From: Pempheris klunzingeri | Lineage: Eukaryota > Chordata > Actinopteri > Acropomatiformes > Pempheridae | Length of the DNA stretch: 64,000 nucleotides | Assembly: GCF_042242105.1 (NCBI RefSeq) | Contig: NC_092034.1 | Span: forward strand, 17,476,644-17,540,643 | Direction: 5' to 3' | In this document: positions 20,638 through 52,377 of the stretch, one piece after another | Numbering within the stretch: position 1 is the first letter of the stretch | Layout: every line of letters starts with the position of its first letter | The notes under the pieces: generated by a model | Told to the model about the DNA's origin: nothing | What the model saw: only the letters and a program-made list of their open reading frames with translations | The model's database searches: none | Position numbers and translations under genes: made by a program

Positions 20638-23600
20638 GTAAGTGGATGAATGTTTGTGCTGTTAAAGGGGGATGACGATAGTGTTAAAACCACTGTAGTG
20701 TTAAAACCACTGTAGAGATGCAGGTCGCACTGGCAATTGTTATACAATGAGAAGCCAGTGAGGGATGAAGTTTTCATCTCTCAACTAGCGCCACCTCCTG
20801 GATGGTCCAGGGTTTGGACAAGAATATGACACAAATATGTAGCAACAAACGAATAAAGTCGGTAATAAATAACAGTTCTGAACGGCAATAGTTATGTCAG
20901 ATTGGAGCGCCTATTCTCCTCCTCGTTTGCCATCTTCTAGCCATTGAATCAACAAAAACGTGCCAGGAAAGTGTTCATTTACAATTTTTTTGCAAAACTT
21001 AAATTAAATAGGATGAAGAGCAGCCGTGTCAGAGTTTGTTCCTAAATCCTCCTGGTCACAGTTTCAGGCCGGCGTCTTAAAAAGGAAAAAGTGTTGTGTT
21101 TCTGGTGTCTCGTATTACTGGCTGTTGAATCCGACCCCACTTCAACTGGCTCACGGCAAATCTGCTCGTTCTCCCCCTCTTCCACAGATCATGAAGCATC
21201 AAATTGTGACTAACTCACATAGCCTCACCAGGCCTCTGCAGAAGTAGATGTGTTACTGTGATGCATTCTGTTATTTAGTTTGTATGCTTTGTGTTTGTAG
21301 ACCTCCAGAGAGTCTCTGAAGATGGAGCTGTTAGCTGATGTGTCCCTGCTGCCAGGGGAGGAGAAAATCACAGGTGAGAATATGTAGCTCCAACACACTT
21401 AAATCACTGTTCACTCTGGTTTTAACAGATGTGTTTTGTTGCCCCTGTGCTATTACTGTGGTCATGGGCAAGTAATTTGACTCCCCACATCTCTGTCAGG
21501 TGAAGTGCCTGTGGAGCTCAGAGAACAGTGCTCCTACTGTATATGTCAGGATCAGTGTACAAGCAAACACTTGGCTCAGCGAGAGGCTCCAGAAATGGTC
21601 AGAAATCTTTGGTACTAGCCATGAACCCATGTTCAGTTAATGTGTGTGTGTGGATCAGTTGAACACACACTAGTGTGGTCGGACACAGCTTTCTGTCTGA
21701 CACAAGTGCTTGTGTTCACTAGAGGAGAGAGGAATGCAGGTGACAGTTCAATGAAGACTGAGGCCAGTAGGCTGCAGTACTGTCCCCATCACACAGGCTA
21801 TCAAATACTTCATCTGCCTTCCTAAACATGGTGCCAGGTTAGCCAACTAGAAATCAGTGTGGCCAAGCCAAAAGAATTACTTATCTGCACCAAACCGAAT
21901 CTAGAACAGAGCCTGCTTTACATAATGGCCAACATGCTGAGAATGTGGAAAGGTTTAAATACCTCAGTACAGTCCTGTACTCTTAGATTAGAAAACAGTG
22001 GCTATATTTTCTATATATATATTGTCTTCAATTATTCTTTGGTCAGGTATCACCAGATTTAAATCTTTGTGTTGTATTTCATCAAAGCAAAGTTCTTGTT
22101 TGAGTGGTAATGTTAATTGATAATGCAGGTTCATTACAACTTTTTTCTTTTTGATGCCACTGCTCCACACCTGCAGTCCACACCAAGACAGATGACTACA
22201 ACTGTATTTAATTTAAATATTGTTCCAGCTCAATGGATGGCCGAGTCCACACCACAACTATAACGACGAGGATAATGGGGAACTATGGGTTTTGTATCAC
22301 TTTCAGAGGGATGTGGTGAACGACAGAAGCACTGACAGCTGGTCCAATTTCATCCCAATTTACAGAGAATCACATGTGCTGGGATACCATCAAAATGATG
22401 CTGACTCATAGGAGCGTGAATATAATTCTTCCAAAGACGACCGCAGAGAACTCCCCTGGTCTGCTGCTTTTGTTTTCCTTTCTCTGTGAAATCCAGCAGT
22501 TACAGGTCAATAATATCCTTTTTCCTGAGCTGCCAACACAGCTGGAGCATGCAGCGCGTATTTGGCTCCACTGTTTACAGAACACTATTGTTCAGCTGTG
22601 TGGACGCTCTCATTGTTATCCTTTTCATCACAGTTATCATTCCTCGTGTGTTCGGCCCTTTACTGTGGTTACGTGTGCAAGACAGAAGAAAATGTACCTT
22701 GTGTCGCAGCAGTTTAATTTTAAATCAGCTTTCACTGTGTGTTTTTTTTTTTTTTTTTTTTTTCCCAACTAGGGGCAGAGTCAGGCTAACTTTTTCTCCC
22801 CTGCTTCCAGTCACTATGCTAGGCTAGGCTAACCACGTTCTGATGCCAGCTCTGCACTTCACAGACATGAGAATGATATCAATTGCTTCATCGCTCCATA
22901 TTCTTGGATGTAAATAATGATTAAGTGAGTGCAGTGTTATTAGTACTGAAAGGGAAGGAGTGTTACTAAAACTACGACAGGCTCACCCTGTACCAGACTG
23001 GGCATGGAAGACATCACTAAACACTGATGCATTTGAGACCTTTGGGTGCAAATCATTTCTTACATTGAAAAATGTCTTTGTACTTGGCAGAATAAGGTTT
23101 GAAAAAATACAAGAGACAACTGCAGTTGTACGCTGTGGACCATTCTGCCTTAAGGTCACCATAAGGTAGAATGGTTGTCCACCAACCTTTGTTTAAAAGC
23201 CACATATGTTGCCATCAGTTAGTTTTATTCATGACTCAGCCTGTCAATATTCTCCAGTTTTGACTACTCCACCCAAACTGTGACTTGACTGTAAGCAGTT
23301 TACGTACTGCTGAGTGGGTCTGTCCTTGCATCAGGCTCTTACTGAACACTCAGAGTAGATGGTATTTATAGTGTACTTTTGCTGCAGGGCTCTCCGTTTT
23401 CTGCTTCCTCTTTTCTGCGTGCGTGGTGATTTCTTCCCTTACAGTGCTCACTGCCTACCAGCAACATGATGACGTCTGAACCAGAGCACTCGTGATGAAA
23501 GGGATCCTGTTCTGAGCCTGTGCAAGATCAGACATGAGACAAGCAAATCAATAAACGTTTGTATTCATCTATTTCCAGATAAAGACATCATATACATCTG

Positions 23601-23697
23601 TCCATTCAGTGGAGCTGTGAAAGGCAAAGTGTTGATCACCAACTACAGACTCCACTTCAAGAGCTCAGATGCTGTAAGTCCCATTAAAATCATGTGA

Positions 23698-23758
<61 letters not shown>

Positions 23759-26700
23759 CAGATGGAAGCCACCGGCCAGCAGTGAGGTTAAATGACGTAT
23801 CTCGCAGCATCTCTGTGACACGTCTGTGTGTGGGCTGTTGGGGTTTCTTTTAACGTGGTGCATCACAGCTTTGGTCTGTTCTAACGGACTGAAGCCCCGT
23901 TCGGACTGGGTCACCATCACAGGACGAGTGAGAGTGAAATAGTCACCGGGCTCCTCAGGATTTTAACTCATTGGTTCGGACGGCATTTTAACCTTCAGGA
24001 AATGACAGGATGTGCTCCGCTTTAGCTCTTTAGATAATTTATTCTTCAGGTTGTTTCCAGTTTCGCTTTGATTGGCTATGGTTCCTCCTCAGCTCCTTTC
24101 CAACGTTAGCTATCTCCTGACCGCCAAATCAGAGAAAAACGGAGACAAAGTCGTTAAACGTATCAAGAAAGCGAACATTTTGGGAGCTTTGGTTACGAAG
24201 TGACAGTGACAAGGGCAGAGTGGGTGGGTGGGTCGTGGAAATGCAACTTTTTATCCATGGAAAGTCAGGGAAAAGTCTGAGACTTTTCATTATCTAGAAT
24301 AACCAGAGTAAATGACTAGAAATACTCTAAGGAATCATAGATGTTTCCATCTAAACAGTTCAAAGATATTGCTCCAGACATGATTTATTTAACAGGAGGA
24401 GCAGTTAGTTCACAGAAGAACATAAGGGAAGTGTGGGTGGGTGTGGGATTAAAATCACCCCACCTCCTTACAGAAATAAAAACAGTCTGAATGTGGCTTC
24501 GGTATATAGCGTGCAGAACCGTGATGTTTTTCTGGGAATTGTCCACAGTTCCCCTGCACAACGCTCCTTCAGTGCTTCTGACTTCTTTGATCTGGTGGGC
24601 CTTTATCAGGCTGCCACGCACTGGACTACTCTTCCTCCATCACTGTATTGTGTTCACCACACTTCTTTTACTGAAATGTACGCTAAGTGAATTTGTTTCA
24701 CCACATGGAGGCAGCATAAACAAGCTGTAAACACAAGGCTGGCATATTATTTCTTAATCAAGTTGTTGTGGTGAACAAGCAAAAAGCTACAACTACACAT
24801 CCAGCAGACACAGAGCAACATGAGAGACGTCTTTGTATCCACCTGGTGAATGTCTGTCCAATAATCATATTTGGCTCTGCTTTGGTCTCCACCACCCCCT
24901 GACGACAATAACCGGCTCTTGAGCTGCTAAATGCTCCACAGTGTTCACCAGCTGGTCTCTCTGTACTTCTACATGCAGGAGAACACAGTTTGAAAATGTA
25001 ATGCATGTTTACTGATAGCAGTGAGCACTTTATTACTTTATTTCCTATCAGTTGATGTACTTTGTACTTTGTGTTAGTGAATGTAACGATGTGCTGACTA
25101 TGTAGGATGTGGTGCTGGTGCTGGACGTTCCTCTGGGTGCCATCAGTCGGGTGGAGAAGATGGGCGGAGCTTCAAGCAGAGGAGAAAACTCCTATGGCCT
25201 GGATATCACCTGCAAGGTGTGTGTGTGTGTGTGTATGTATGGACTCTTTAGAATCTAGCATTGTTTCTTGACTGTCCCTATTTGATAACAGTCTTCTTCT
25301 TCACTGCCTTTGCTGGCAGTTGCTGCATACCTTGATATGCTCCGGCAGCTGTAGATCAGTGGAACTGTGTGAAACCATTGACAGGACTACTCATGCATGT
25401 GTGTGCACAAGACAAAGCTCAAAGTTGAGTTCCTGAGCCAGTTATCTATAGGGTGGAAGTCTCTTGTTTGATATTTCTTTGCTCCTCGCTTGAAGCGGAA
25501 GGTGTTCTGGCTTAGTTCTTCTCTGAGGGGCGAGGATCCAGGAATGATCTCTGACACAAGTTAGGATACTAGAGAGCAACTTTCATGGAATTCTTTTACC
25601 GGCCGACACCCACTTAGTGGGTATCAGTTATTGATTGGACGATGCAGCTGATCGCACTGATCTGATACATCACAACATGAATGGAGCTCCTCACTGGAGT
25701 AAAGACAGATAACAGATCCTGATTATGTCACTTCCAAGTTTTCTATGTTTTCTGTTTTCTGACTCACCATCTAGTTAAAATCGTTTCATTGTAAGTCTGA
25801 ACATCAAAAGGACCGCAGACAACTGTCTTTATTTATTAAAAGGATTTTTTTCTTTTCATGTCATTTCCCCCATTAACTTTTATTATGGATGCAATTAAAT
25901 TCAGAGAGAGTTAGTGTGTCTGGCTGTCAGCAAGACACTCTTTTCACATCATTTCCATTCACTCACATGAGGCTGATCATTCTTCGTCGTGAAACATTTA
26001 GTCTCATAAATAATTTCCAGTACTCAAAAGACACTCTAATGATATTCTGGGCTATTAAGTGTCATCTGCACAATCAGAATATTGATAAATAATAAAAAGG
26101 CTCGAGTGTGGGAAACAAGGATTCAATAGATCTGAGACTTGAGATGCACCCGTATGCTGGGTTGCATTGTGGGTAAAGTAGGCACCAGGGTTTGCCAAGG
26201 AAGAAGAACGTATGAGATAAAAAAGACAATATCTCTGGTTCTTCTTCCTTTTTTGAATCATTCTTTGTGAGCGCAGTAGTGTCACGTGAGTACAATGCTA
26301 AATCACACATATCTTCTGAAAAAAGTGGAATGGCCCTCTAGAATATGATCTTACTTATGCTGCCTTTGCTGTGTGTGTGTGTGTGTGTGTGTGTGCATGC
26401 ACGCTGATTGTAAAGTTGGTATTTTTCTCTCCTTCTCAGGACATGCGGAACTTGAGGTTTGCCTTGAAGCAGGAAGGCCACAGCAGAAGAGATATCTTCG
26501 AGCTCCTCTTCAGACACGCCTTCCCCCTCTCACATGGTCAGGTAAGGCAGCTCCAACCTCCAGTGCCAGTGACTGCTGGCTTTTCTTGTATCTTGCAAAA
26601 AGAAACCTTATTTGTTGCTCAGCCAGCAAGGGAATTCACGGAGAAGATGCTCCACATGCAGCCTCATTTTCTCAGATACTTCAGTTGGACAGTTAGACAG

Positions 26701-29700
26701 CTGACTTTAAGCCAAATGCTGCAGTGCTTGAATGTTACTCCAGTCTTGAACACCGAATGTATTCATACCAGAAAACCATTTAAATCCACCCAGCACTGGC
26801 TGAGAAAGGACATTTTTCTGCTTCCTGTCATCCTCCGTTTGTTTCAGTGCCCAGTATTCATGCAAATGCTGAAATGCAGAGATGCAGCCCCCTTATATGC
26901 CGTGACACACAGCTACCCGCCCACACCACGGCTACATCTGCTTGACTAATATTTGTGCTCGCTAAAATTTGTGTCAGAGCAAGCCTCAGCACAGCTACTT
27001 TTAAGTCTGTGTTGAGTTGTGTGGAGAGAGGGCAGAGCCCCAAATTCATTCTGCTTGACTACCTGTGGGCCACACTGTACTGAGTATCCAAGCAAGCAGC
27101 ATTACAATTCAGGCACAGGCTTTGAAAATGTTTAAAGCTCCTTTTTAAAACTCCTGTTCTGGAAGGTTAGATGCACGTGAAACTTACTTTCCTGGTTGAA
27201 TCTTCAGTACAAAAGATTTGTTCTTGATTGAAAAGTCAAAGCTGTGCTAAAAACCTAAGAGGGGAAGCCAACCTTGACTCCTTAAGGGGAACTTTAGCCA
27301 GAGCCATCCATTCACAAAGAGCATTCTGTTGCATGGTCTGTTAACCCAACCCAAAACTGAATATTTAATGACAAGGAAATCCCATTGATCCCACTGAACA
27401 TGGGCTACATGTTTTGAGTAATCTCCTGTGGTTGGGGGTCACCCTCACAGTGGGTGATTTATCTGACTTTGAGGCCTTTATCGATCACATCTACTGCCAT
27501 CAAGACAGCATGGGCTCAAACACCGGGATCAGCTCACCCACTACATCTTCCCAAAGATTCCTCTGCAGACGCAGAGGACCTACAGAAACAGACAAAGTTA
27601 GCGTCCCCTCTAGTAGACAACTCATTACAGTCATCGCTTAAAAGAACCATTCAAGGGATCCTAACCTCCTCCTGTATCCCTGAAACTGCCTCCAAAATAA
27701 AGACTGAAGAGTCCCTGAAAATTCACCTTACATTTATGAGTGACCCCTATGTCTCTTTGCTGAGCCATCTAATCAAGGCTAGTTCATCACAAGATGCCAC
27801 TGGTGTGACGTGTGTGTGTCCTCTCCCCTCCATCCAGCCAATGTTTGCATATGTGACTCAGGAGAAGTACGAGGAGAACGGCTGGAACGTCTACAAACCT
27901 ATCGAGGAGTTCAGACGGCAGGTAAGGAGGAATAAAAGCCTTAACTACTACAGGACTGTGTGTGTGTGTATAAGTAAACACACCCCGGACACAACCTGTT
28001 CCAGCTCCTCCTGCATGCCAAAACAACCAGACACAAAAACAGCTTCTATCCACAGGCGACTGCACTATTAAACACTTCAGTCTGTCACAGTGTCAGAAAC
28101 AAATCCCCGTGCAGTAACCCTGTTACACTGTACCTGTACCTACTCTTTCTAAACTAGATTCTTTACAATCCAGAAAACAGCTTGGGTTCGCACACCATTA
28201 CTATACTGTATCCACCCACATCCTACCTACCCCATGTGTATAATGGAACCTGTACATAGTCATTCCATATTTATTCCAGCATCTTATATACTTATATATT
28301 GTACATAGACCATAAGTGTTTTTTTGCTTAAGTTAAATGTGTGTTTCTTTACTTCAGCTTCGTCGTTCTTGTCTCCCTGTTTATCTGTTTGTGTCCGTAA
28401 AGTCAAAGTCCTTGTATGTGTTCACATACATGGCCAGTAAGAGTTGGTTCTGATGCTAAATGCGTCAGAATGTACTGGATGAATGGTTTAAAGCATTCAG
28501 TAGAATCACATTTGAATTAAAGGTAGAATTTCAATAATCCTGCAAATAGAATATTCCAGTGTCTGAGTAAGTAACTGAAGATGGTCCTTGTCTCTTGCAG
28601 GGCCTGCCTAATAACAAGTGGCGCATTACATTTATCAATAAGAACTATGATCTATGTGACACCTACCCCACTGTGTTGGCTGTGCCCTTTAAAAGTAAAG
28701 AGGAGGACCTCAGAAGAGTGGCTGCCTTCAGGTCAAGAGGACGTGTACCGGTGAGTGCAAAACTGATCCATGAGTATAATCTACTGGTGTCATCATTTCT
28801 GCTAATCACTTTTGACATGCCGTCCAAGGTAAACTTCAAGATATCCCCTCTGCTACATAATACAGCAGGCAGTCAACGCTGATGCCTACTTTGTCTCACT
28901 CTGAGTGGATTGAAGAGTCCTTCCTTTCAGGCAGCAAGCAAATCCCATCTCTCTCCCCATACCCTCACTAACCCTGGCAGAGTAGTTGCTGTTGATTTGC
29001 CGTTGTTTTCATGTGAGGCTCAGTTCGGCTTGGCTGAAGTTGGGTTTTTGATTAGAGGTTGTACACAGGTCAGCAGCTAGTGTCGTCAGTGATGCTCCTG
29101 ACGCCTGAAACGTTCTCTGAATAACTATGGAACTGTGAATTGTCTCCGCTATGCAAAGTCCAGTTTATTTGATGTTATATTTGAAACTCTTGCATCAGTC
29201 TGCCCTAGCGCCTGCCTCGTGTTTGTTTCTCAGTCCGTCACAACCCTGGATGTTGTGTTGCCATTACAAGCTACCTGACAGCGAATCCGTGTCGTTGAAC
29301 CCCGAAGAGACCTGTGAACATTCCGTCTGTCTTTGTGCTGCAGGTCCTGTCATGGATCCACAGGGAGAACCAGGCGGTGATTGCCCGCTGCAGTCAGCCT
29401 CTGGTTGGTATGTCTGGTAAAAGAAACAAGGATGACGAGCGCTACCTGGACCTGATCAGGGAGGCGAACGACACCACCAAGCTCACCATCTACGACGCTC
29501 GCCCCAACGTCAATGCTGTGGCCAACAAGGTCAGGAGGGAAAGCATGTTCAGGGTTCATTTCTTTGTCTTTCTACAGCGCCGGGTTGCACAACAACATGC
29601 AAGTTGTAGTCCCATTGTGCTACTGAAGCAAATGTATCATTAATGATGGAGTGGGAGGAAAGAAGCTGACATCCTATTTGCTAGTTCTGATATGGTATAG

Positions 29701-32700
29701 ATATTGTTCAAATAGTTGAGCATTGGGGCTACAAATAACTGAAGTATATATATTATATAATGTTGGATCATATAAATCATGCTGCTCATTTTTTGTCTCT
29801 CTGCGAAACACACACTTTTATGCAAATAATCTTGTCAAGCACTGGCCAAACCAATAGTATGAATAGGTAAAGGTATTTACAGTACTGGCCCCAGAGGCTG
29901 ATTCCTTATGATTTTGACTTAGGAAACACCTCAATGTGTTAAGTGAATGAGTCCCACTCCCTGTTACTGTTACCAACGTATACCAACGATTCATTTGGCC
30001 TTATTCTTTGTCTCATCGTGCTGTAACCAGGCCACAGGAGGAGGTTACGAAGGTGATGAGTACCAAAACGCAGAGCTCGTCTTCCTGGACATCCAGAACA
30101 TCCACGTCATGAGGGAATCCCTGAAGAAGCTCAAAGACATCGTCTACCCCAATGTGGAGGAATCTCATTGGCTGTCCAGTCTAGAGTCCACACACTGGCT
30201 AGAACATGTTAAGGTAAGAAAAAGAAGAGTGTCCGTGCACACATGAATGTCACCATTTCATCTAGGTGGAGATTATCATTGCTTGTTTTCTGAAAGTCCA
30301 AAGCCTTCCTAAATTGTGTCTGTGTGTGTATGTGTGTGTGTAGCTGGTGCTGTCAGGAGCCATCCAAGTGGCAGACAAGGTTTCCAGTGGAAATTCAGTG
30401 GTGGTTCACTGCAGTGACGGCTGGGACAGAACTGCTCAGCTCACCTCTCTGGCCATGCTGATGCTGGACAGTCACTACCGCACTCTCCGAGGGTTCCAGG
30501 TCAGCCCCAGCACGAACAGATTTCAGTGAGTGAGAATAAAGCTGTAGTGAAAATGAATGAACATTTTTGTTTTGTTTCAGGTGCTGATTGAGAAGGAATG
30601 GATCAGCTTTGGGCACAAGTTTGCCTCAGTAAGTAACATTTTTACTCTTATTTTGATGATCTACTTCAGCTTTGTTTTGATAGGAATTCACTTTCAACAG
30701 TGTCAGAAACAGAACTTTGTTCAAGAAGTGACTCATTTGAGTGTGTGTGTGTGTGTGTGTAGAGGATAGGTCATGGGGACAAGAACCATGCAGATCAGGA
30801 CAGATCCCCCATCTTCGTTCAGTTCATCGACTGTGTATGGCAGATGACCAAACAGGTAGGTTTCAAACATCTGAATCATCTAGCTGCAGTCATGTGGGAC
30901 CTCAAAGGCATGAACATCATTTGTCAGGTTGTCACTGGCACACAAGGAGGGAGGGGGGGTTGGACAGCCACCATAACATTATTTTTAGATGGTCCCTTGG
31001 CCCACTAGGATTTGTCCCAGTGTGCCAGAGGGTCGGAGGGTATGGTAGAGAGAGGAACACAAGCTTCACTGCTGGAGCTTGTCAGCTCTTTCAGTCCTAA
31101 GCTGAGCACGCAGCAGCAGCAATGGTTACTGCAAGGCAACATATCACAGGAGTAAAGTGAAAGCAGCAACAGAATCACTCTGTCAACTGTAGACAAATGA
31201 TTCACTTTAACCACTTTATATGTTGATACTGATCCAAACATGTCTAGAGGCTGTTTGTAATTAGAATAGTTAATTTACCTTTCATTTATTGCTGAGCCAG
31301 CATTTAGTTTGCTCTAGTTAAAATGACCACAGTGGCAGCAGATTAACATTGTATTCTCCTTTCAGTTCCCTACAGCCTTTGAGTTTAATGAGCGCCTCCT
31401 GCTGACGATCCTGGATCATCTCTATAGCTGTCGCTTTGGGACTTTCCTCTACAACTGTGAGAGCGCACGAGACCAGCATGTAAGCCTGGGCAGAAAACAC
31501 TGCCCGCTTTAAGTCGGCCAACAACATGCAAGCATGCTTTGAGGGTGCAGCGCATTTCAGCTTTAAATGTGACCCCCTGTCTGTTGTGCAGGAGCTGAGG
31601 TCGAAGACGGTGTCTTTGTGGTCTCTGGTCAACAGTAAGATGGACATTTATTTAAACCCCTTCTACACACCGGAGTCCGGCAGGGTCCTCTACCCCGTTG
31701 CCAGCATGCGCCACCTAGAGCTGTGGGTAACATACTACATCCGCTGGAACCCACGCATACGACAGCAGGTAGGGCTGCTTGTGTGTTTGCTATAATCTCC
31801 CTTAACCAGAGCCCCAGGCTTCCCTGTCTGTGAGGAAAAATACTGTTTTAGTGAATGGAGTCTGGTGTGTGTGCTGTTTGTGGTTAAACCAAAAGGATCT
31901 TCCAGGTCTCTCTCTGTAGGGATCCTTTCCATGATGCTGTCGGGCTAAAAATGACAAAAACATTTAAGGCTGCTGAAAGGAAAAGTTCAAGAATAATGTC
32001 ATAATATTTTATTTCCATTTACCATCGTATTACAGTTTTTCTGTCGTGGATATGTGCAGTTTCACTCAAAATGATACGCTCTATTACAGGTGGTTTCTCC
32101 AAATTGAACACAACTTTTAATAACTACTGCATACAATACACCTAATCTGTAATGGGGCTTGAATACTTTTGAGTGTAGTCAGGCTGTAGTATACAGTCAG
32201 GCAGTGCTCTTAGACTTAGACTTAGACTTCGACTTCTTTATTTGATCCCCCATAGGGGGAAATTTTCTTGTTACAGCAGCAACAATATAAACAGGGAGAG
32301 TGAAAAAAACAGAGCAATAGAAAAGACAAAAATAGCAAAAATAAATATAAATATAAATATATGGATTGTGATGAAATGAAATAAATATTTACACCATAGG
32401 ATATTTTGAAATAAATATTTACACCATAGGATATTCAAACATGAGCATATAATCTCATTGTAACATGCAACATTTGTTAGAGAAAGCTGACAACCTTTTT
32501 CTGTCTTTGTTCTCATCATTTTGTCATAGATGTTTTTAATTCATAATTTTCTTTTAATTATCCTATTAACAAAGAAAAGTCTACTCGAGGTGGGGAAAAG
32601 CCGGCAACTAAGTAAATGATTGCAGCCACAGAGAATCAGGGAATTTTGTGCATCCTGTTAAAAAATGAAAATGTATTTATTTTGTTCTGATTGGCTATGG

Positions 32701-33104
32701 TCACTCCATTTCATTGACAAACTGAGGCAAAGTGAGCAGTCATGCCAGGAAAGTGGGCATTTCAGCAGCTTTGATTAGAGAGTTCTAAAATGGCACGTTA
32801 CATTTGTAGGTCATGGAAATTTCAACGTTTTTGTCATGAAAAGACCTAGAGTGGGAACGATGTGAGAAATGATGTGTGATGTGTGTGTGTGTGTGTGTGT
32901 TGTGTACTCCAGCAGCAGAGTCCAGTGGAGCAGCGCTACAAGGAGCTGTTGGCCCTCAGAGATGAGTACTTAAAGAAGTTGGAGGAGCTGCAGCTGTCCG
33001 ACTCTTCTCCTTCCTCCCGTCTGGCTAACAGCCCCACGGCCAACACCTCGTCCACCTCCTCCACACCATCACAGCAATACACACACCTACACACTCCCCT
33101 CTGA
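20590..33104 (+). CDS. mtm1: mtm1, myotubularin, 15 coding exons, complete (603 aa)
   Basis: Phosphoinositide 3-phosphatase that removes the D3 phosphate of PI3P and PI(3,5)P2 on endosomal and, in muscle, sarcoplasmic membranes (known for the family). Coding exons: 20590-20637, 21301-21373, 23579-23673, 25106-25216, 26440-26541, 27838-27921, 28601-28750, 29344-29529, 30031-30213, 30344-30499, 30581-30628, 30763-30855, 31366-31479, 31592-31768, 32913-33104. All junctions are GT-AG and keep one frame. The 603 residues match the length of human MTM1. Order: PH-GRAM (about residues 29-150), phosphatase (about 160-535) with HCSDGWDR (Cys367, Arg373), Asp272 in LTIYDARP matching human Asp278, then a coiled coil (about 545-580) and a C-terminal T-P-L that fits a class I PDZ ligand. 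Start choice: MASPVSVY has a purine at -3 and G at +4, and the next exon begins TSRESLK as human exon 3 begins TSRD. No frameshift or missing catalytic residue. Confidence 0.97.
21301..21373 (+). CDS. mtm1: mtm1 coding exon 2 (residues 17-40, start of PH-GRAM)
   Basis: 73 nt, the same size as the matching human exon. Acceptor TTTGTAG, donor ACAG|GTGAGA, ends in phase 1. Contains [10 protein letters not shown], the family's LPGE motif opening the PH-GRAM fold. Confidence 0.95.
23579..23673 (+). CDS. mtm1: mtm1 coding exon 3 (residues 41-72, PH-GRAM)
   Basis: 95 nt, with YICPFSG and [14 protein letters not shown] core strands. Acceptor ATTTCCAG, donor GCT|GTAAGT. Same size and phase as mtmr1 coding exon 4. 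Confidence 0.96.
23701..23757 (+). repeat. (GT)n microsatellite, about 28 units
   Basis: Uninterrupted tract starting 28 bp after the donor of mtm1 coding exon 3. Confidence 0.99.
24060..24290. repeat. Dispersed repeat, copy 1 (mtm1 intron)
   Basis: Shares TTTGATTGGCTATGG-like sequence, then GCAGCTTT-like and GTCATGGAAATTTCAACGTTTT-like blocks in diverged form with 32680-32850. The family is not named. Confidence 0.4.
25106..25216 (+). CDS. mtm1: mtm1 coding exon 4 (residues 73-109, PH-GRAM)
   Basis: 111 nt in phase 0, encoding [16 protein letters not shown] and [14 protein letters not shown], nearly identical to human MTM1. The donor is AAG|GTGTGTGTG, where the splice site runs directly into a short TG tract. 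Confidence 0.97.
26440..26541 (+). CDS. mtm1: mtm1 coding exon 5 (residues 110-143, end of PH-GRAM)
   Basis: 102 nt encoding [18 protein letters not shown], as in human MTM1. Acceptor CTTCTCAG, donor CAG|GTAAGG, phase 0. Confidence 0.97.
27838..27921 (+). CDS. mtm1: mtm1 coding exon 6 (residues 144-171)
   Basis: 84 nt encoding the linker between PH-GRAM and phosphatase ([16 protein letters not shown]). Acceptor CATCCAG, donor CAG|GTAAGG. The matching mtmr1 exon is also 84 nt. Confidence 0.96.
27960..28440 (+). mobile_element. LINE 3' fragment (L2/Rex-like) in mtm1 intron
   Basis: Starts with the LINE 3'-ORF-like stretch ACCTGTTCCAGCTCCTCC and AACAGCTTCTATCCACAGGC. Ends AAGTCAAAGTCCTTGTATGT, then TTCACATACATGGCC, a common fish LINE tail. 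No intact ORF. Confidence 0.6.
28601..28750 (+). CDS. mtm1: mtm1 coding exon 7 (residues 172-221, start of phosphatase domain)
   Basis: 150 nt: [20 protein letters not shown], followed by the [14 protein letters not shown] stretch. Acceptor CTTGCAG, donor CCG|GTGAGT. Confidence 0.97.
29344..29529 (+). CDS. mtm1: mtm1 coding exon 8 (residues 222-283, catalytic Asp272)
   Basis: 186 nt: [43 protein letters not shown]. The Asp of YDARP aligns with human Asp278, reported as needed for activity. Acceptor TGCTGCAG, donor AAG|GTCAGG. Confidence 0.97.
30031..30213 (+). CDS. mtm1: mtm1 coding exon 9 (residues 284-344)
   Basis: 183 nt: [47 protein letters not shown], conserved throughout the family. 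Acceptor CTGTAACCAG, donor AAG|GTAAGA. Confidence 0.97.
30344..30499 (+). CDS. mtm1: mtm1 coding exon 10 (residues 345-396, active-site P-loop)
   Basis: 156 nt holding [20 protein letters not shown], the C-x5-R active site (Cys367, Arg373). The acceptor follows a TG-rich run (TGTGTGTAG). Bases from 30398 to the fourth base of the following intron (30503) are identical to mtmr1 50057-50162, probably through gene conversion. The tail HYRTLRGFQ differs from human MTM1 but matches the mtmr1 copy here. Confidence 0.97.
30581..30628 (+). CDS. mtm1: mtm1 coding exon 11 (residues 397-412)
   Basis: 48-nt exon encoding [16 protein letters not shown]. Acceptor TTTGTTTCAG, donor TCA|GTAAGT. mtmr1 has a 48-nt exon at the same place. 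Confidence 0.96.
30763..30855 (+). CDS. mtm1: mtm1 coding exon 12 (residues 413-443)
   Basis: 93 nt: [18 protein letters not shown], then [12 protein letters not shown]. The acceptor is (TG)9-TAG with no ordinary polypyrimidine tract. Donor CAG|GTAGGT. Confidence 0.96.
31366..31479 (+). CDS. mtm1: mtm1 coding exon 13 (residues 444-481)
   Basis: 114 nt: [20 protein letters not shown], then CRFGTFLYN, the SET-interacting region of the family. Acceptor CTTTCAG, donor CAT|GTAAGC. Confidence 0.96.
31592..31768 (+). CDS. mtm1: mtm1 coding exon 14 (residues 482-540)
   Basis: 177 nt: [12 protein letters not shown], then [14 protein letters not shown] and RWNPRIRQQ. Acceptor TTGTGCAG, donor CAG|GTAGGG. 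This is one exon here, whereas mtmr1 splits the homologous region with an 84-bp intron. Confidence 0.96.
31847..31935 (-). repeat. Short dispersed repeat, copy C (mtm1 intron 14)
   Basis: Reverse complement contains GAAAGGATCCCTACAGAGAG, then AACCACAAACAG and CACCAGACTCCATTCAC, also found in mtmr1 introns at 49577 and 50573. Confidence 0.8.
32205..32300 (-). mobile_element. LINE 3' tail, reverse orientation
   Basis: (TTAGAC)n, then CTTTATTTGATCCCCCATAG and GGGGAAATTTTCTTGTTACA. On the minus strand this is the ATCAAATAAAG-type 3' end of fish L2/CR1-like LINEs. Confidence 0.55.
32680..32855. repeat. Dispersed repeat, copy 2 (mtm1 intron 14)
   Basis: CTGATTGGCTATGGTCACTC, then GGTCATGGAAATTTCAACG, a frequent fish repeat block, also diverged at 24060-24290. 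Confidence 0.4.
32913..33104 (+). CDS. mtm1: mtm1 last coding exon (residues 541-603 and stop)
   Basis: Encodes [20 protein letters not shown], a coiled-coil heptad region, then a Ser/Thr-rich tail ending HLHTPL and TGA at 33102-33104. The acceptor is a NAG repeat (CCAG CAG CAG), so use of the second or third AG would drop one or two Gln residues. A CA microsatellite begins 23 bp after the stop. Confidence 0.93.

Positions 33105-40590: not shown

Positions 40591-52328
<11,738 letters not shown>

Positions 52329-52377
<49 letters not shown>
52329..52377 (+). repeat. (AC)n microsatellite at mtmr1 stop
   Basis: 24 AC units starting at the last base of the stop codon. Confidence 0.98.

Follow-up and report, generated by a model that had tools for sequence, protein, structure and literature searches.

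A 106-bp tract that mtm1 shares with the tandem gene mtmr1a in the fish Pempheris klunzingeri is best explained by short interlocus gene conversion between the two, recurrent in teleosts and limited to the active site. We take the tract to record one recent event and put the probability of this reading at roughly 0.87. The sequence-only reading of this DNA had proposed ectopic conversion between tandem paralogues, and our analysis supports that proposal. The window analysed is a stretch of 64,000 nucleotides (NC_092034.1, positions 17,476,644 to 17,540,643 of the forward strand). It carries mtm1 (23579..33104, + strand; 13 coding exons) and mtmr1 (46960..52329, + strand; 14 coding exons), both modelled by homology with their N-terminal exons unplaced. 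The genes lie in tandem in direct orientation, 19.7 kb apart. Both code for lipid phosphatases and have the features of myotubularins, namely the active-site motif HCSDGWDRT and a myotubularin phosphatase domain, and AG precedes and GT follows the exons at the internal junctions printed for the two models. The mtm1 protein is 95% identical to the myotubularins of Micropterus and Amphiprion. For both genes percomorph proteins are the closest among the matches listed, and the closest of those listed for the mtmr1 of the window identify it as mtmr1a type.

The tract occupies 30398..30503 (+ strand) in mtm1 and 50057..50162 (+ strand) in mtmr1. The two copies are identical at 106/106 bases and the flanking base differs on each side, as the initial claim of identity with immediately diverging flanks had it. 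In both genes the tract consists of the 102 right-hand bases of exon 8 (34 codons, here called exon 8 right), followed by four intron bases. HCSDGWDRT falls within exon 8 right, confirming that the tract covers the active site. The intron bases had also been counted towards the identity; all four match, but two are the obligatory GT, which leaves only about two informative intron bases and gives them little weight. Directly left of the tract is a codon indel, mtm1 being one codon shorter than mtmr1, and the left parts of exon 8 (mtm1, 30344..30397; mtmr1, 50000..50056; both + strand) are not homogenised. The same 10 bases occur in these left parts at 30351-30360 and 50007-50016, coding LSGA in mtmr1, and are possibly a second, tiny converted patch. 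Exon 9 (mtm1, 30581..30628; mtmr1, 50251..50298; both + strand), which is homogenised in several other teleosts and not in P. klunzingeri, has 75% of bases identical between the two genes, and the mtmr1 copy retains the MTMR1-type GHRF.

Silent sites set the tract apart from the rest of the two genes. Outside it, 62.9% of bases are identical across 518 codon pairs in a codon-aligned comparison of mtm1 and mtmr1. Codons for shared residues, counted with Met and Trp excluded, were identical at 31/31 positions in the tract compared with 152/279 elsewhere (Fisher p = 2.8e-8), and four-fold sites agreed at 18/18 compared with 53/118, in line with the earlier observation that other homologous exons differ at synonymous sites. 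The longest run of identical shared-residue codons was 32 (of 310), a length reached in 0/100,000 label shuffles. Apart from the tract, the genes share only one exact run of 18 bases or longer that is not simple sequence, an 18-base match in exon 12. A search of the genome DNA (645.9 Mb, 439 contigs) matched the tract at two places only among the best candidates scored. The tract is thus a run of identity that includes silent sites and has diverged flanks, the pattern by which conversion is recognised.

An alternative is that the active-site protein is under purifying selection, possibly aided by codon or splicing constraint, and that this keeps the region alike with no copying. No other region of the genes is as conserved: exon 8 right has 92% identity between mtm1 and mtmr1 of different species, and the solved chains of MTMR1 and MTMR2 closely resemble each other in it. 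However, an mtmr2-like gene elsewhere in this genome (locus L004 on contig C14; name assigned from sequence) shares 29/34 residues in the same exon and yet only 15/26 codons are identical. Protein selection therefore does not explain the DNA identity of the tract, as the sequence-only reading had argued, and the similarity goes beyond functional constraint. Nor can constraint put mtm1 closer to mtmr1a than mtmr1b is in one block only, a pattern described below, and we consider this alternative very improbable. The peptide HYRTLRGFQ, which had also been offered as a mark of conversion, does differ in the solved MTMR1 and MTMR2 chains, but it is usual in the percomorph mtm1 rows listed and frequent in those of mtmr1a. 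Because it is common among relatives, the evidence for conversion lies in the DNA. The mtmr2-like gene (C14:9568131-9571340) has short introns and a compact layout. In the examined part of 67 domain matches from this genome, we recognised no third copy of mtmr1b type.

An error of assembly or polishing could in principle have copied one exon over the other in the P. klunzingeri genome, the tract being presumably shorter than a short read. Against this, the flanks are distinct on both sides and the identity is limited to half an exon, and the same block is homogenised in the records of other species, from many sources. We give such an error only a slight chance.

Protein data suggest that conversion has happened repeatedly in teleosts, the window being one example; outside P. 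klunzingeri, the basis for conversion is 50 residues of a conserved region, from proteins only. Searches with each query supplied the best 120 matches, beyond which more existed, as cluster representatives with isoforms included. The mtm1 query gave fish myotubularins (P0003-P0122, including one mammal-like row, P0007), the mtmr1 query gave mostly mtmr1a (P0123-P0242) and a third search supplied mtmr1b and non-teleost rows. Both proteins were among the listed matches for 32 species, which with the window fish formed a paired set of 33. In permutations of this set, two of 13 exons showed mtm1–mtmr1 identity within species in excess of that of shuffled partners: exon 8, with p = 0.0002, and exon 9, with p = 0.0004. 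The other 11 gave p values of 0.10 to 0.99. The Sander lucioperca row P0096 ('Myotubularin') appears to run from the 5′ part of mtm1 into mtmr1-like sequence downstream, probably because gene models were fused across the shared exon, and was dropped.

With exon 8 split at the tract edge, a boundary fixed by the finding, and exon 9 added after the alignments had been viewed, the 32 species without Sander gave p = 0.0003 for exon 8 right and p = 0.0002 for exon 9. No such signal was obtained in this set for exon 8 left (p = 0.30), exon 10 (0.26), exons 1–7 (0.57) or exons 11–13 (1.0). Much of the species signal is due to a few species: after further removal of Aplochiton, Brachyhypopomus and Gymnothorax (29 species), exon 8 right gave p = 0.021 and exon 9 gave p = 0.056, with p = 0.004 for the two combined. 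The 13 pairs judged linked gave p = 0.0003 for exon 8 right and p = 0.0002 for exon 9. At the protein level, species-wise excess identity thus appears confined to exon 8 right and exon 9. The exon clustering check proposed at the outset came out accordingly, as the proteins did not cluster orthologue-wise in these exons. Because relatives often carry the same tract peptide, this species-wise test tells us little more about P. klunzingeri itself.

Rare residues common to both genes of a species point the same way. They include V in AMVMLD in Aplochiton, G in DGHYRT in Esox, K in RTLKGFQ in Albula, T in RTLTGFQ together with V in KEWV in Gymnothorax, FTS in Denticeps and Brachyhypopomus, and IGFGH in Alosa. 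Among the 32 species without Sander, rare shared residues numbered 7 in exon 8 (1.6 expected; 1/500 shuffles) and 5 in exon 9 (1.1 expected; 1/500 shuffles), with 1 in exon 12 (2.1 expected). Exon 13 had 6, from five species (2.6 expected; 13/500 shuffles), a mild and unexplained excess in a variable tail. With Sander included (33 species), exons 12 and 13 joined exons 8 and 9 in showing an excess, and Sander contributed 7/14 of the rare-residue rows of exons 12–13 at a threshold of 0.2.

We compared mtm1 and mtmr1a with mtmr1b, the ohnologue of mtmr1a, in six otocephalan sets, which share ancestry and do not represent six independent events; four are from a single species or genus and two mix related genera, and one carp row was taken as mtmr1a by sequence. 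In exons 1–7, mtm1 and mtmr1a agreed at 985/1806 residues (54.5%) compared with 1411/1809 (78.0%) for mtmr1a and mtmr1b. The same order held in exon 8 left (63/108 compared with 87/108), exon 10 (135/186 compared with 171/186) and exons 11–13 (494/906 compared with 674/881). In exon 8 right plus exon 9, mtm1 and mtmr1a agreed at 296/300 (98.7%), whereas mtmr1a and mtmr1b agreed at 264/300 (88.0%). As read from these protein sequences, the order of relatedness is flipped in this block alone.

Phylogenetic trees were in keeping with this result. In the 505 columns outside the core, all 35 mtm1 rows fell on one side of a branch with SH-aLRT support of 100. Restricted to the 50 core columns, the tree required 11 changes of label for the 26 mtm1 rows taken to be linked, and strongly supported branches forced 9 of them. 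When blocks of 50 codons were scanned, 49 of the 52 required one change; the exceptions, starting at codons 321, 331 and 341, required 17, 7 and 2. On the core block, a single mtm1 clade was not rejected by an AU test (p = 0.295). The topology of the remaining columns was rejected in the core block, with a log-likelihood gap of 187, but this test is not decisive because that topology was also rejected in the sole finished control block (p = 0.0005, gap 76). We regard the tree evidence as supporting only, since high conservation blurs trees too. Together with the permutations and the three-gene comparison, and at the protein level only, it indicates that the segment clusters by species while its flanks cluster by gene.

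We next consider linkage, for which contigs of equal size were taken as the same contig. Among the two Conger mtm1 copies listed, the one on the same contig as mtmr1a matched it at 48/50 core residues, and the one on a different contig at 42/50. Different-contig mtm1 copies matched mtmr1a at 43/50 in Anguilla rostrata, 42/50 in Synaphobranchus and 40/50 in Megalops. All six same-contig pairs from non-teleosts (Acipenser, two; Polyodon, two; Amia; Polypterus) scored 40–41/50. Judged by these core residues, the four different-contig elopomorph mtm1 copies and the non-teleost pairs appear not to be homogenised. Linked teleost pairs from Lepidogalaxias (40/50), Lampris (43/50) and Periophthalmus (43/50) did little or no better than non-teleosts, so conversion is not universal in linked teleost pairs. 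In Scleropages, mtm1 shares its contig with a partner annotated as mtmr1b, and in Paramormyrops mtm1 and mtmr1b share QLSS, DGYYRT and KEWL and match at 48/50. Sturgeon, paddlefish, Amia and Polypterus already have mtm1 and mtmr1 as separate genes. A further alternative for the other teleosts is that the two enzymes adapted in parallel at the protein level within each species, with no copying of DNA. It fits the fact that proteins are the data for those species and the expectation that MTM1 and MTMR1 share their lipid substrates within an animal, but it leaves the identical silent sites of the window unexplained, and neither mtmr1b nor the different-contig mtm1 copies follow; we consider it the least probable of the alternatives.

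Returning to gene conversion, we think it somewhat more probable than its negation that an active-site module, running from the fixed codon indel through exon 9, has been exchanged in both directions since early teleosts, with the core tracking species more than gene, and with homogenisation tracking linkage and ending on separation. Diagnostic residues bear on direction. The MTM1-type Q of QKEW was present in 21/118 scorable mtm1 rows, and the other 97/118 had the MTMR1-type E. The Q-bearing rows comprised 13 from named non-teleost fish, 1 without a species name and 7 from elopomorphs. Of five Q-bearing elopomorph species-copies, four were on a contig of another size than the listed mtmr1a; for the fifth, from Anguilla anguilla, mtmr1a was absent among the matches listed. 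Conversely, the MTM1-type K in GHKF occurred in 104/118 scorable mtmr1 rows. In the third search, which brought mainly mtmr1b and MTMR1 of non-teleosts, 85/89 scorable rows had R at this site. The prevalence of E in mtm1 rows and of K in mtmr1 rows suggests transfer both ways. DSHYRT is usual in percomorph mtm1 rows and patchy in mtmr1a, with SH in 34/119 mtmr1 rows, and the mtmr1 of P. klunzingeri has LSGA where 109/120 listed mtmr1 rows have A. These patterns hint that mtm1 was the donor in P. klunzingeri, with the direction uncertain. Zero changes at about 26 silent and intron sites would bound the age of the event at about 7–29 My (95%), a rough figure that assumes substitution rates between 8e-9 and 2e-9 per site per year.

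Mechanistically, non-reciprocal copying between mtm1 and the tandem mtmr1a would yield the identical active-site half of exon 8. Double-strand-break repair with the neighbouring gene as template may do the copying, and active-site constraint may preserve enough similarity for pairing. The left codon indel and the diverged introns and flanking exons would bound the exchange, and selection would tolerate it if the two catalytic cores are interchangeable. With transfer in both directions over time, the phosphatase active-site loop region (exon 8 right and, in several species, exon 9) would be kept alike while flanking exons diverge as old paralogues.

Tandem cone-opsin genes of fish and primates likewise undergo recurrent conversion, although the copies are usually younger than the mtm1/mtmr1 split. 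We found no report of gene conversion or concerted evolution of MTM1, MTMR1 or myotubularin among the open-licence papers searched. The fugu protocadherin clusters (PMC1852091) resemble mtm1/mtmr1a in the lineage-specific, regional homogenisation of tandem teleost paralogues, but they are large arrays, unlike two genes that agree at 63% of other coding bases and share a block of about 50 codons. Newt sodium channels (PMC8476164) offer a parallel in which short functional stretches, the toxin-binding sites, are copied between paralogues; those authors link conversion to adaptive resistance, whereas the case of mtm1/mtmr1a carries no adaptive claim. The gene for X-linked myotubular myopathy is MTM1, and its zebrafish counterpart mtm1 serves as a disease model (PMC3688503). 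If the catalytic exons of teleost mtm1 partly carry mtmr1a history, trees, selection tests and conservation arguments there can mislead. The pair also offers a natural test of the limits that linkage, an indel and protein constraint set on conversion, with linked, unlinked and non-teleost comparisons.

Two further features were observed. An interspersed repeat of about 150 bases occurs as direct copies at 49576-49727 and 50567-50717, flanking mtmr1 exons 8–9, and was considered as a possible trigger of conversion; an inverted copy lies in mtm1 intron 12, at about 31810-31945. In mtmr1, an extra intron (51414-51497) divides into two parts (51370-51413 and 51498-51630) an exon that is single in mtm1 (31592-31768).
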